Shown piece by piece: positions 33,039-37,830 of a DNA stretch of 40,773 nucleotides. Origin of the DNA: Planctomycetota bacterium. Its GTDB lineage: Bacteria > Planctomycetota > Phycisphaerae > Phycisphaerales > SM1A02. The notes under the pieces were generated by a model. It searched no databases, was not told where the DNA came from, and saw only the letters and a list, made by a program, of their open reading frames with translations. Each line of letters opens with the position of its first letter. Position 1 is the first letter of the stretch. The translations under genes were made by a program, and so were the position numbers. The DNA lies in assembly GCA_016873255.1 (NCBI GenBank), contig VGXR01000020.1:1-40773 (forward strand), read 5' to 3'.

Positions 33039-33806
33039 TCACTCGGCCTCGGCAGCCGATCGCACGGCCTGCAGGATGCCGCGCAGCACCAGGTCGGGCA
33101 CGACGCGCGTCACCAGCTCGCTGTCGGAGAAGATGGCCTCGGCATCTCCGCCCGTGGCGATCACCAGCGGGAACGCGCGGTAGCTCGACGCATAGCGCTC
33201 GACGAGCGCCTGGGTGAGCCCGCGGATCCCCTCGAACACGCCGAGCTGCATTGCAGCCTCGGTGTTGCGGCCGAAGGCCTCGTCGTCGGACGGGCGCGCG
33301 AACCGCAGCTGCGGGAGCTGCGCGGTCCGGCCGTGCAGCGCGTCGAGCTGCATCTGCGCGCCCGGTGCGATGGCGCCGCCGTGGAACACGCCCTCGCCGT
33401 CGATGAAGTCCACGGTCACCGCGGTGCCGGCGTCCACCACGATCACCGCCTGCTTGAACATGCCGAACGCCGCCGCCGCCACCAGCAGGCGGTCCTGGCC
33501 GGGCGTCGCGCCCTCGTCGAGGCAGCGGCCGATCGGCACCTCGATGTCGCGCCCGAGGCGCCAGATGTCGGTGTGCAGCTCGGAGGCGAGCCTTGCCTCG
33601 ACCGCGGTGGCCACGGGATCGTTGACGCTGGCGATGACCACCTCGGCCTCGTCGTCGCCGCGATGCTCCCACTGCGCGGCCGCGGCCTTCACGATGGCCG
33701 CGACGTCGTCGTTGGGCAGGTGCTGCGTGACATGCAGGTCGTCGCCATGGAAGCTGCCGACCGCGGTTCGCGTATTGCCGACGCTGATGGCAAGCAGGAA
33801 GGGCAT
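33039..33806 (-). CDS. coaX: Type III pantothenate kinase, CoaX
   Basis: The 255-residue protein has the ASKHA fold motifs of CoaX: GQDRLLVAAAAFG (GxDR), VVDAGTAVTVDFID, GGAIAPGAQMQ and GRNTEAAMQLGVFEG. CoaX carries out the first step of coenzyme A synthesis. The first phosphate motif, normally DxGNT, reads SVGNTR (Ser8 in place of Asp), which is unusual. ATG 33806 follows TATACT by 7 nt without a Shine-Dalgarno. The aminotransferase stop is 50 nt upstream, so the gene may be both read through and independently transcribed. Confidence 0.88.
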   Translation of the reverse strand: MPFLLAISVGNTRTAVGSFHGDDLHVTQHLPNDDVAAIVKAAAAQWEHRGDDEAEVVIASVNDPVATAVEARLASELHTDIWRLGRDIEVPIGRCLDEGATPGQDRLLVAAAAFGMFKQAVIVVDAGTAVTVDFIDGEGVFHGGAIAPGAQMQLDALHGRTAQLPQLRFARPSDDEAFGRNTEAAMQLGVFEGIRGLTQALVERYASSYRAFPLVIATGGDAEAIFSDSELVTRVVPDLVLRGILQAVRSAAEAE

Positions 33807-33813
33807 CCGTGCG

Positions 33814-33856: not shown

Positions 33857-34741
33857 TCACCCGGCTGCGCGCGCCTCGCGCACCTCGCGCGCCACGCGCC
33901 TGCGCATCGCCGCGAACAGCGCGCGGCACGCGGGCCCGGCCTTCGCGTCCCCGACCGGCGCGCCGTCGAGGTGCGTGACCGCCGCGACCAGGCGGCGGCT
34001 CGACTGCACGAGCACCTCGTCGGCCGTGCGCAGCTCGTCCTCGCGGACGCGGCGCACCTCGGCTGGGACGCCGGCCTCGCGCGCGGCGTCGAGCACCCAG
34101 TGGCGCATCGTGCCGTGCAGCACCGGCGCGGCGCCGTCGTCGACGGGCGGCGTGACCAGCCTGCCGCCGTGCACGACCGCCGCGTTCGTGTACGCGCCCT
34201 CGCCCACGAACCCGCCGCGCACCAGGATGCACTCGTCCGCGCCCGCGGCCTGCGCCTCGATGAGCGCGAGCACGTTCCCGGCGAGCGCGATGGTCTTGAT
34301 CTCGCAGCGGTGCCAGCGCATGTCGGGCCGCACGATCGCGCGCATCTCCTCGGGCTCGGTGAACGCCTCGAGCGGCGCGCTCGGCGTCGCGAATGCGAAC
34401 ACCGTGGGGACCGGCCCGGGCGCGGGCATGTGCGACCGCGTGGTGCCGGCGCCGCGCGTCACCTGCAGGTAGACGCCCGCGTCGCGCAGGCCGTTCGCCT
34501 CGAGCAGCTCGCGGGCAATGCTCCCGAGCCTCCGCGCGTCGAAGCCGCGGATCCCGGTGAGATCCAAGCTGCGCGCGAGCCGCGCCTCGTGCAGGCCGAG
34601 CGCGACGCCCACCCCCGCGAAGTAGCGGACGTACTCGTACACGCCGTCGCCGAACAGGAAGCCCCGGTCCCACGCGCTCACGCGCGCCTCGTCGCCGCGG
34701 ACGAGCCTGCCGTCGAGGTGCACGAGCGCTGCGTCGGGCAT
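33857..34741 (-). CDS. Class IV aminotransferase, D-amino-acid-transaminase-like
   Basis: The 294-residue protein is a fold-type IV PLP enzyme. The PLP lysine is Lys149 in RCEIKTIALAGNVLA. The N-terminal DRGFLFGDGVYEYVRY and the GGFVGEGAYTNAAVVHGG block match D-alanine aminotransferase and its relatives. Branched-chain aminotransferase and aminodeoxychorismate lyase belong to the same fold; the CEIK...NVLA sequence favours the D-amino-acid group. The start ATG has GAGGGA 6 nt upstream and lies 8 nt after the BtpA stop. Position in the operon after a receptor-like channel and BtpA is unusual. Confidence 0.82.
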   Translation of the reverse strand: MPDAALVHLDGRLVRGDEARVSAWDRGFLFGDGVYEYVRYFAGVGVALGLHEARLARSLDLTGIRGFDARRLGSIARELLEANGLRDAGVYLQVTRGAGTTRSHMPAPGPVPTVFAFATPSAPLEAFTEPEEMRAIVRPDMRWHRCEIKTIALAGNVLALIEAQAAGADECILVRGGFVGEGAYTNAAVVHGGRLVTPPVDDGAAPVLHGTMRHWVLDAAREAGVPAEVRRVREDELRTADEVLVQSSRRLVAAVTHLDGAPVGDAKAGPACRALFAAMRRRVAREVREARAAG

Positions 34742-34748
34742 GCGTCCC

Positions 34749-35609
34749 TCAGCGCGAGCCCATCACGGCGCGCACGGCGTCCATCCCGGGCGCCTGGCCC
34801 GCCGCGCGCGCCCGCGCCGCCTGCGCGAACTCGCCCGCGCGCCGCGGGCACACCGCGTTCTCCCAGCGGCCGCCTTCCTTGATCCAGCTGCCCACGATGA
34901 CCGCGTCGGCCACGGCGAGGAGCCGCGCCACGCCGGAGGCGTCCGCGCCGCTCCCGGTGAGCACGGGCAGGCGCGTCGCGGCGCGCACGGCGGCCAGCTC
35001 GCGCTCGTCCACCGCGGCGCCGGTCTCGGTGCCGGTGACGATGACGCCGTCCGCCAGGAAGAACTCCGCCGCGCGCGCGAACGCGGCGATGTCGGCGTCG
35101 GAGGTGATCGCGTGCGACGCGTGCTTCTTCTTGATGTCGGCGAGCACCAGCACGCGTTCCGCGCCGATCGAGCGACGGAAGCGGAGCAGCGGCCCCGCGG
35201 CGGCCTCGGCCATCAGGCCCTCGTCCGCCACGTGCGCGAACACGAAGTTCTCCGCCCGCACGAAGTCGAGCCCCGCGGCGTGCGCCACCGCGACGGCCTC
35301 GCGCGCACCGCCGCCGAGCACCTGCACGCCCACCGGCGCGTCGGCCACCGCCGCCCGCACCCCCGCGGCCACGGCCGACATGCACGCCGTGACCTCTGGC
35401 CCGATGTCGCCGCCGAGGTACGGCCGGTCATGCATGTTCTCGATCATCACGGCGTCGAAGCCGGCCTCGCGCAGGACGCGCGCCTCGTGCACGGCCTGCG
35501 CCACCAGCTCGCGCGGGGCGAGCAGGGCGCGCGGCGTGCCGGGCAGCGCGCCCACGTGCACCATGCCGACGATCCCGCGCGGGGCGTTGCGTGCGTGCGT
35601 GTTGGTCAT
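34749..35609 (-). CDS. BtpA/SgcQ family protein
   Basis: The 286-residue protein opens MTNTHARNAPRGIVGMVHVG and then GALPGTPRALLAPRELVAQA. With FDAVMIENMHDRPYLG, VLADIKKKHA and ADAVIVGSWIKEGG this matches the BtpA/SgcQ family, a TIM-barrel group. BtpA was linked to photosystem I stability in cyanobacteria; SgcQ is a putative sugar operon enzyme. The reaction is unknown. The start overlaps the channel stop (ATGA), indicating tight co-translation. A TACGAT sequence 6 nt upstream resembles a -10 but lies within the channel gene. Confidence 0.85.
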   Translation of the reverse strand: MTNTHARNAPRGIVGMVHVGALPGTPRALLAPRELVAQAVHEARVLREAGFDAVMIENMHDRPYLGGDIGPEVTACMSAVAAGVRAAVADAPVGVQVLGGGAREAVAVAHAAGLDFVRAENFVFAHVADEGLMAEAAAGPLLRFRRSIGAERVLVLADIKKKHASHAITSDADIAAFARAAEFFLADGVIVTGTETGAAVDERELAAVRAATRLPVLTGSGADASGVARLLAVADAVIVGSWIKEGGRWENAVCPRRAGEFAQAARARAAGQAPGMDAVRAVMGSR

Positions 35610-36883
35610 GGCCGCATCGTACGGCCCGGGGCGGTGTAGATCAGCTGACGCGTGTCGCTGTCCCCGGTCTCCCCCGCGACGGTGTCTGTCTGTCCCATCA
35701 TGGTCGCGCGCAGCGCGCGGTACTCGGGCGACTGCGCGGCCTTGAGCACCGCGAGGTCGATCCGCTTCTCCAGTGCAGGGTCGAGCCCGAAGCGCATGGC
35801 GATCCCGACGAAGTCCCGCACGAGCGGCCGCGGCAGCACCGTCACGTGCCGGCCGCCGGATCGCTCGGCCAGGAAGACGAGCGTGGTCGTGGATCCGACC
35901 ACCGCGTCGAGGCGTTCGGCGGCGAGCTCGCGCATGGCCTCCTCGAAGCTTTCGAAGCGAAGCGACTTCAGCTCCGTGCGCTGCAGGTAGGCCTCGCCGG
36001 TACTGCCCTTCATCGTCCCGATCTTCGCGCGCGCGAGGCCTGTCGCCCCGGTGACCACCGGCTGGAGGCTCGCCACCGTCAGCGTGGAGGTCACGACGCC
36101 CGCGCTCACCGTGATGAGCACGAACCCCACGGCCATCCAGACCATCGCGACGATGCGGCCAGAGCGCGTCACCGGCACCCGGTCGCCGTAGCCCACCGTG
36201 GTCAGCGTGACCGCGCTCCACCAGAAACTCTCGCGGATACCTCGCGCGGCGGGTCCTTCGATCGGCGGGTTTCGCCTTCGCTCGGCGGCCCAGAAGAGGC
36301 AGCCAAACACGAAGGTGGATCCCACGAGCATCAGAAGCCATGACGCCAGCTCGACGCTCGCCACCCGGTTGATCACCGAGCGGAACGAGAGATTGCTGTG
36401 GATGCGGGTGGCGATCGAGATGCCGCTCAGGTCGAAGGGCGGCGTCATCGTGAACCGCACGAGGTTCTCGGGATGGATCGCGAGCCCCGTGACCAACACG
36501 TCGACCTGTCCCTTTGCGAGCGCGTCGGTGGCGTCGTCGAGAGAAAGCTGGACCACCTCGTAGTCGAGCTTGAGCTCCGTGGTCACGTCCTTCCAGGCCT
36601 GCGCCGCGAGCCCCGACCAGTACGGCACCTTCTCGCTCGGCGGGATGGTCCAGGGCGGCAGGTCCGCGATGCCGACGCGCAGGCGCACGGAGGGGTCGAT
36701 GACTGGCAGCGCGTCGCCGATGCGAAGCACGGGCGCGCGCTCGCCGAAGTGCGCGGTGTCGGCGGCGGGCGCGGGCGTCGGTTCGGCGGCACTCGCCTGG
36801 GGTGGTGCACCCGGTGCCTGCCGGTGCGCCCCGGCGCTGGCGAGAGCGGCGATCATGGCGGTAAGTCCGGCGGCGATGCTCAT
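35606..36883 (-). CDS. Glutamate-receptor-like (GluR0-type) potassium channel
   Basis: The 425-residue protein has the split arrangement of prokaryotic ionotropic receptors: signal peptide and Pro/Ala linker (1-50), ligand-binding lobe S1 (about 65-165), TM1 (178-199), pore, TM2 (243-262) and lobe S2 (283-395). The pore is FWWSAVTLTTVGYGDRVP with the K+ filter TVGYGD at 229-234. S1 contains LRVGIADLPPW and S2 contains KGSTGEAYL, both typical of SBP_bac_3 domains. Usual amino-acid ligand residues look lost: HPENLVRF replaces the TxER pattern (Asn140 for Arg), and DAVVGS has Ser331 at the Asp position. A TATCCT box lies 7 nt before the ATG. It heads the run channel-btpA-aminotransferase-coaX-GTPase. 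Confidence 0.9.
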   Translation of the reverse strand: MSIAAGLTAMIAALASAGAHRQAPGAPPQASAAEPTPAPAADTAHFGERAPVLRIGDALPVIDPSVRLRVGIADLPPWTIPPSEKVPYWSGLAAQAWKDVTTELKLDYEVVQLSLDDATDALAKGQVDVLVTGLAIHPENLVRFTMTPPFDLSGISIATRIHSNLSFRSVINRVASVELASWLLMLVGSTFVFGCLFWAAERRRNPPIEGPAARGIRESFWWSAVTLTTVGYGDRVPVTRSGRIVAMVWMAVGFVLITVSAGVVTSTLTVASLQPVVTGATGLARAKIGTMKGSTGEAYLQRTELKSLRFESFEEAMRELAAERLDAVVGSTTTLVFLAERSGGRHVTVLPRPLVRDFVGIAMRFGLDPALEKRIDLAVLKAAQSPEYRALRATMMGQTDTVAGETGDSDTRQLIYTAPGRTMRP

Positions 36884-36927: not shown

Positions 36928-37830
36928 ATGGCCGCTCCCGAGCATGCCTCCCGCCAAGACGCCGCCGACCGCCCCGCGGCCCCGGCGCCCGCCGCGCCCC
37001 GCCACCCACGCCCGGTCGCGGTGATCACGGGCGCGAGCGCGGGGATCGGCGCCGCCACCGCGGTGGAACTCGCCCGCTCGGGCCACGACCTGCTGCTCGT
37101 CGCGCGCCGCCGCGGGCGCCTGGCCGACGTCGCCGCGCGCGCTTCCGATGCCGCTGGTCGTCCGGTGCGCGCCGAGCTGCTGCAGCTCGACGTGGCGGAG
37201 CCGTCGAGCGCGGCGCGCATCCTCGACGCCGCCGAGCACGCCTTCGGCCGCTTCGACGTCGTGTACGCGAACGCCGGCTACGGCATGGAGCGCTCGATGC
37301 ACGCCATGGGGATCGGCGAGCTCCGCGCGATGTTCGAGACGAACTTCTTCTCCTCGGTGGAGCTGTGCAACGAGGCCGCCCGGCGCCTGCTTGCGGCGCG
37401 GCGCACGGGCCACCTGGTCATGTGCTCCTCGTGCGTGGCCAAGTTCACGCTGCCGGACTTCGGCGCCTACAGCGCGAGCAAGGCCGCGCAGGCGCACGTG
37501 GCCCGCGCCATGGCGTACGAGCTTCGTCCCCACGGCATCATGGTCTCGAGCGTGCACCCGGTCACCACCGCCACCGAGTTCTTCGACGTGGTGCGCGACG
37601 GGCTGCCCGCCGGCGCCCGGCAGCAGTACGCCATCCACGACATGAGCAAGTTCTTCGTGCAGCGCCCCGAGAAGGTTGCGCGCGCCATCGCGCGCTCGAT
37701 CGGCAAGCCGCGCACGGAGATCTGGACCAGCCTGCCGACGCGCATCGCGGCCGGTGCGATCACCGCGTTCCCGTGGCTCCTCGACGTGGCGGTGGCCCTC
37801 TCCGCGCGGAAGCAGCCGCGGGCCCGGTAG
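36928..37830 (+). CDS. Short-chain dehydrogenase/reductase
   Basis: The 300-residue protein has a 29-residue Ala/Pro-rich lead before the Rossmann start VAVITGASAGIGAAT (TGxxxGIG). YANAGYG matches the NAG motif. The active site is YSASKAAQ (YxxxK), with the Ser in VMCSSCVAKF. The C-terminal stretch (ITAFPWLLDVAVALSA) is hydrophobic and may associate with membrane. Cofactor is probably NADP(H), because ARRRGR follows the second beta strand. Substrate unknown. Confidence 0.88.
   Translation: MAAPEHASRQDAADRPAAPAPAAPRHPRPVAVITGASAGIGAATAVELARSGHDLLLVARRRGRLADVAARASDAAGRPVRAELLQLDVAEPSSAARILDAAEHAFGRFDVVYANAGYGMERSMHAMGIGELRAMFETNFFSSVELCNEAARRLLAARRTGHLVMCSSCVAKFTLPDFGAYSASKAAQAHVARAMAYELRPHGIMVSSVHPVTTATEFFDVVRDGLPAGARQQYAIHDMSKFFVQRPEKVARAIARSIGKPRTEIWTSLPTRIAAGAITAFPWLLDVAVALSARKQPRAR

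Follow-up and report, generated by a model that had tools for sequence, protein, structure and literature searches.

Recurrent replacement of both amino-acid anchors in one syntenic lineage of predicted GluR0-type potassium channels from planctomycetes

A gene on the minus strand of the 40,773-nucleotide stretch of planctomycete DNA analysed here (the window) encodes a predicted GluR0-type K+ channel (35606..36883, stop included; 425 aa) in which both residues that canonically grip an α-amino acid are replaced, and comparison with its relatives indicates that this loss is not peculiar to the gene but recurs across one lineage of orthologs that share a genomic site. Because the amino-acid-gripping residues have been replaced several times in this clade, the channel is probably no longer gated by amino acids in the usual way. 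The reading that we favour, with somewhat better than even confidence, is that of a K+-selective channel of GluR0 topology without the canonical amino-acid pose, acting as a leak or turgor/volume channel whose clamshell would be ligand-independent, inversely gated or otherwise set.

Results

The channel has an intact GluR0-like architecture

The open reading frame runs from an ATG at 36883-36881 to a TGA at 35608-35606 on the minus strand, and its product matches the Pfam domains SBP_bac_3 (residues 68-393), Ion_trans_2 (217-269, E 2.6e-13) and Lig_chan (180-287). The AlphaFold2 model, computed from a 71-row alignment (mean pLDDT 85.9), places an N-terminal helix, S1, TM1, a pore helix, TM2 and S2 in that order. 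Combining sequence, Pfam and model, we assign, all on the minus strand, an N-terminal hydrophobic helix to residues 1-20 (36824..36883; helix 2-16 in the model), a probable signal peptide; the S1 half of the ligand-binding domain to residues 66-161 (36401..36688; Pfam and model); TM1 to the modelled helix 177-201 (36281..36355); the K+ selectivity filter TVGYGD to residues 229-234 (36182..36199; sequence and Pfam); TM2 to the modelled helix 240-271 (36071..36166); and the S2 half to residues 284-396 (35696..36034; Pfam and model).

In a Foldseek search with the model, ionotropic glutamate receptors (iGluRs) rank first. VIA-align returns as its top match 1ii5, the GluR0-glutamate core (Z 24.6, rmsd 2.4 over 217 residues), with engineered glutamine-binding proteins and Nostoc GluR0 at most 1 Z unit behind. 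The S1-TM1-TVGYGD pore-TM2-S2 layout that an earlier note had read from the sequence is thus borne out by domains, model and both structural searches, and the comparison with GluR0 that it proposed yields GluR0 itself as the best structural match. Since the K+ filter, both transmembrane helices and the clamshell are intact, the protein most probably functions as a K+ channel with the inverted topology of GluR0, a topology reported as experimentally determined for GluR0 (PMC13099474).

Upstream of S1, residues 43-66 form an N-terminal extension (36686..36757, minus strand) that is conserved in the genus, with a mean pairwise identity of 0.57 (residues 1-42, 0.26; S1, 0.68); it is far shorter in the relative L011. 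This segment is a candidate tether, or could even be inserted into the cleft.

Both canonical anchors are replaced

The earlier note had also read the segments HPENLVRF (H137-P-E-N140-L-V-R143-F) and DAVVGS (ending in S331) as the sites of the lost anchors, and this holds by three routes: phmmer, a family profile and predicted secondary structure. Profile alignments place the codon for Asn140 (36464..36466, minus strand) at the canonical position of the Arg that binds the α-carboxylate and that for Ser331 (35891..35893, minus strand) at the position of the Asp/Glu that binds the α-amino group. Against reconstructed amino-acid binders, phmmer aligns the Arg of 'PER' to N140 and the Asp of 'VVxD' to S331; the family profile brings the TPERAA Arg and FDRPAL Asp of GluR0 (1ii5/1iit), as well as the Arg and Asp of the Nostoc protein (2pyy), to the same columns 140 and 331. 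Finally, strand 129-135, helix 138-141 and strand 327-331 of our model correspond in register, with offsets of 33 and 32, to strand 96-102, helix 105-108 and strand 295-299 in a second model (mean pLDDT 92.9), that of the syntenic relative L012, which carries Arg107 and Asp299. With Asn in place of the S1 Arg and Ser in place of the S2 Asp/Glu, the channel falls, by the residues tested, outside the amino-acid-gated receptors.

All eight sequences of the genus in the alignment, ours included, lack the Arg (N in six, H in two at column 140), so the replacement is not a local sequence error; column 331 is S in seven and E in one (L007), and two partial copies add an N at 140 (L010) and an S at 331 (L013). 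The seven orthologs are 46-60% identical to our channel. Named copies come from planctomycete metagenome-assembled genomes (MAGs), two of them labelled Phycisphaerales, and the isolate names (Baikal, Pavin and 'pond' among them) hint at a fresh-water origin. Close ortholog pairs are under purifying selection: dN/dS is 0.08-0.25 in four such pairs and 0.14 for L004/L008, with values of 0.51 and 0.68 in two distant pairs, where the simple method is less dependable.

Further pocket positions have settled within the genus. Column 78 is Trp in 8/8 genus sequences and in none of the remainder of the 92 K+-filter sequences, column 135 is P or A (Pro in 6/8) and column 359 is V or I; we take these columns to be the positions of GluA2 Tyr450, Thr480 and Tyr732, respectively. 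G133, G293 and S/T294 are each fixed in 8/8.

The channel occupies a conserved genomic site

The gene order at the site is GAPDH and a short-chain dehydrogenase (SDR) on one side and, on the other, the channel followed by BtpA, a class IV aminotransferase and coaX. In the window, the divergent SDR gene, kept in part of the family, lies at 36928..37830 on the plus strand; the BtpA family gene (34749..35609), the aminotransferase (33857..34741) and the type III pantothenate kinase gene coaX (33039..33812), the latter two also conserved neighbours, lie on the minus strand. The BtpA ATG overlaps the channel TGA by four bases (ATGA, 35606-35609). The same overlap is found in 29 of the 52 syntenic loci that have a BtpA match, a count that took the in-frame start nearest the channel stop and so favours short distances, and it suggests translational coupling of channel and BtpA. 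The best-scoring models for the class IV aminotransferase are those of D-amino-acid transaminase, although its scores stay below their cut-offs.

Of the 181 family genomes searched, 53 yielded a near-full-length syntenic channel, each locus having at least two of the listed neighbours and some missing others (contig ends, SDR absent); the L024 locus has no BtpA match. BtpA itself is present in 100 of the 111 family genomes that are 90% or more complete, and with so much wider a distribution the neighbours make a poor guide to the ligand.

Among the K+-filter channels examined, anchor loss is confined to the syntenic ones

We scored as K+-filter channels those with GYG in the alignment; 92 such sequences, from loci taken from the better search matches with several weak second matches left out, form the basis of the counts and trees. 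Among the 53 near-full-length syntenic channels of the GTDB family (the partial L010, L013 and L103 being excluded here and from the trees), 41 lack the Arg and 28 the acidic residue: nine keep both, three the Arg only, 16 the acid only and 25 neither, so that the Arg is kept in 12/53 and Asp/Glu in 25/53. By contrast, Arg and Asp are both present in all K+-filter channels at other sites in the family (17/17) and elsewhere in the phylum (22/22). Six further K+-filter channels from the order, none beside a BtpA match, also keep both (6/6; three more loci repeated channels already counted), which brings the non-syntenic channels to 45, all with Arg and Asp.

Where the Arg is absent from the family's K+-filter channels, eleven different residues take its column. 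An R or K lies between columns 136 and 142 in seven of the 41 rows without the Arg, and L054 and L037 may be misaligned by one or two residues. Among the loci examined we saw no syntenic channel without the GYG filter. Family channels without GYG keep the Arg in 15/19 and the acid in 19/19; one of them, L088, shows Lys for the Arg and Glu for the Asp, and its near relative L089 keeps the Arg. A scan of the genome contigs with the channel protein alone returned no relatives, and a control scan with PF00060 had no match in any of 14 well-known genomes and so supplied no positive control.

Seven syntenic channels (L030, L032-L034, L036, L039 and L040) carry Phe at 140, Asp/Asn at 135, Glu at 331 and Arg at 334, a pocket remodelled, by its residues, differently from ours; the syntenic L023 has Tyr and Asp where these have Phe and Glu.

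The 53 syntenic channels form exactly one side of a branch with 100/97 bootstrap/SH-aLRT support in a tree built without the pocket columns, and the two non-syntenic sets (family and elsewhere in the phylum) interleave. On the best tree we count seven changes of the Arg and five of the acid, and on a quick tree seven and four. The exact number of losses is uncertain, as backbone branches within the syntenic clade are weak, several with less than 60% bootstrap, and only four of the pairs that differ in the Arg are placed on branches with good support. For a coupled loss of Arg and acid, these four independent pairs yield no significance.

Constraint is lost mainly at the canonical pocket

To follow constraint we compared mean pairwise identity at 12 pocket positions, which we take to be the GluA2 and GlnBP contacts, with that in the rest of the ligand domain, and obtained p values by permutation; residue counts at several pocket columns had already been seen before the pocket list was fixed. 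Between 38 non-syntenic and 43 syntenic channels, near-duplicates removed and groups set by synteny alone, conservation drops by 0.318 in the pocket and by 0.043 elsewhere in the domain (0/20,000 permutations). The difference persists without positions 140 and 331 (0.218 against 0.051; 162/20,000). Similarly, of 28 domain positions with high conservation in the non-syntenic channels, the five in the pocket, which include 140 and 331, retain 0.21 and the others 0.51 (44/20,000). A first comparison, grouped by column 140 ('Arg-less'), was circular for that column. The anchor-neighbouring positions 145, 146 and 155 lost conservation too. On these comparisons, loss of constraint centres on the canonical pocket, whereas the domain overall has kept nearly ordinary constraint, a pattern that fits a loss of amino-acid gating.

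The same measure was applied subclade by subclade, leaving out L024, L028, L037 and L056/L071/L073. Where Arg and Asp are kept, pocket identity exceeds that of the rest of the domain: 0.68 against 0.35 outside the family (0/5,000 permutations), 0.73 against 0.48 in the syntenic Arg+Asp subclade (p 0.006), and 0.62 and 0.67, each against 0.48, in two Arg+Asp subclades at other sites (p 0.10 and 0.08, respectively). Five subclades with complete or partial loss of the Arg were tested, and four of them have a pocket within 0.05 of background: our channel's genus (0.70 against 0.65, p 0.27), the F140 subclade (0.77 against 0.79, p 0.61), the S140 subclade (0.44 against 0.49, p 0.70) and the P331 subclade, with Arg in 3/7 (0.46 against 0.48, p 0.59). 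In the fifth, with Q/L/E/A at 140, the pocket is somewhat above background (0.65 against 0.51, p 0.10), and all members (7/7) carry a P-T-x-E motif at 331-334. For all syntenic channels together the pocket stands at 0.22 and the remainder at 0.28 (p 0.89).

With the pocket close to background in four of the five subclades, loss of amino-acid gating is favoured over a single new fixed ligand, and relaxed constraint, hence a ligand-independent or otherwise gated function, is at least as likely as gating by a new ligand. Within the genus, the pocket replacements are non-random (W78, G133, G293, S/T294, S331); these genus-fixed residues and the P-T-x-E motif fit specialisation as well as relaxation.

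Discussion

The loss of Arg and Asp, common to the orthologs, makes the canonical α-amino-acid pose unlikely in this clamshell. In the sequence of events that we favour, ancestral channels carried the amino-acid anchors and the lineage of our channel left the canonical pose, whereupon clamshell movement would have been uncoupled from amino-acid binding; the channel would then act as a K+ leak or turgor/volume channel, its clamshell state being ligand-independent, inversely gated or driven by another signal. We favour a leak or turgor role because an animal iGluR without the Asp, placozoan AKDF1, is reported to carry a constitutive leak current that ligands block (PMC12226733), and because GluR0 is reported to contribute to the response of cell volume to KCl (PMC13099474).

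The earlier note had gone further, proposing a ligand that is not a simple α-amino acid and a channel gated by a new small molecule. The first part stands to the extent that the canonical pose is unlikely; for the second, the conservation pattern gives no support. That the channel is opened by a small molecule other than an α-amino acid, bound in a remodelled pocket that is lined with Trp and largely without charge, is a possibility that we rate as less likely. It would account for the consistent change, within the genus, of the anchors and of the Thr480-type, Tyr732-type and aromatic positions (W78, A/P135, N/H140, S/E331, V/I359) in an intact fold under purifying selection in close pairs. 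Proteins of the same fold with other ligands, SocA with glucopine and cyclohexadienyl dehydratase, are among the structural matches of the model, and insect ionotropic receptors (IRs) without the glutamate-contact residues are described as still acting as receptors (PMC2924276). However, the pocket is not significantly above background in either the genus or the clade, and none of its 12 positions is charged in all eight genus sequences. Since some replacements are fixed within subclades, a variant deserves mention: a bacterial counterpart of the IRs, in which a syntenic K+ channel in much of this planctomycete family would have been adapted on several occasions to ligands other than amino acids, a different one in each subclade (N/H140-S331; F140-E331; Q/L140 with P-T-x-E; S140-D331). 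On the sequences at hand we regard this as rather doubtful.

It is improbable that an α-amino acid is still bound through other groups, such as Arg143, the N-terminus of the S2 helix (G293-S294) or Asn140. Gly293-Ser/Thr294 and Arg143 are indeed invariant in the genus (8/8 each), but position 135, whose backbone NH we take to help bind the carboxylate in canonical receptors, is Pro in 6/8. Arg143 as an alternative ligand Arg had been set beforehand as the case that would overturn the anchor loss, and the counts lend it no support: among the 92 K+-filter sequences, R/K occupies column 143 in 11/41 of those without Arg140, no more often than in those with it (16/51). Despite its invariance in the genus, Arg143 was therefore rejected as a substitute anchor. 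A precedent for binding through other groups is the animal clade GluE2α, which lacks Arg485 and is still predicted to bind glutamate (PMC12226733). A decaying gene or assembly artefact, to which the eleven residues at the Arg column and the cut MAG copies (L010, L013) might point, is scarcely credible given that orthologs of 46-60% identity have open frames in other genomes, beside the same neighbours, that every syntenic channel seen has a GYG filter and that dN/dS is low in the close pairs; a pseudogene is ruled out by the neighbours, the dN/dS of 0.08-0.25 and the ortholog set.

The S1 Arg and S2 Asp were reported as totally conserved in 22 prokaryotic channels of Groups 1 and 2 (Ger et al. 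2010, PMC2950845), and the clade described here breaks that pattern. A literature search covering titles and the starts of abstracts, with few subscription journals, retrieved no account of prokaryotic channels that lack the Arg or the Asp. One syntenic lineage with both anchor states at the same site amounts to a natural experiment on ligand loss or change, and it supplies matched proteins for side-by-side comparison: L012, with Arg and Asp, against our channel and the F140 and Q140 types, which lack the Arg.

By architecture and descent our channel belongs, on sequence and model, with the Group 1 (GluR0-type) channels of Ger et al.: the halves of its ligand domain flank two transmembrane helices and a P loop, it has the TVGYGD filter, and full-length alignability and the trees of 92 sequences point to common descent with the Arg+Asp K+-filter channels. 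With GluR0 of Synechocystis it shares the S1-TM1-P-TM2-S2 order, the K+ filter and the SBP_bac_3 fold; unlike GluR0 and Group 1 as described there, it has both anchors replaced. L002, a Group 2-type protein from the same genome whose relatives recur in the genus, likewise has its SBP_bac_3 domain split by a two-TM pore, but lacks the GYG filter (TGKTSYKG) and keeps Arg and Asp. The nearest parallels to our channel are the insect IRs and placozoan AKDF1. The IRs, however, are proteins of a protostome animal clade, whereas our channel is a bacterial K+-filter channel with planctomycete orthologs at one conserved site, and each family genome has at most three matches among those listed, pore-only ones included. 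AKDF1 resembles our channel in lacking the Asp that binds the α-amino group; it is eukaryotic, and its description names the Asp alone as missing (PMC12226733), whereas our channel has lost both anchors.
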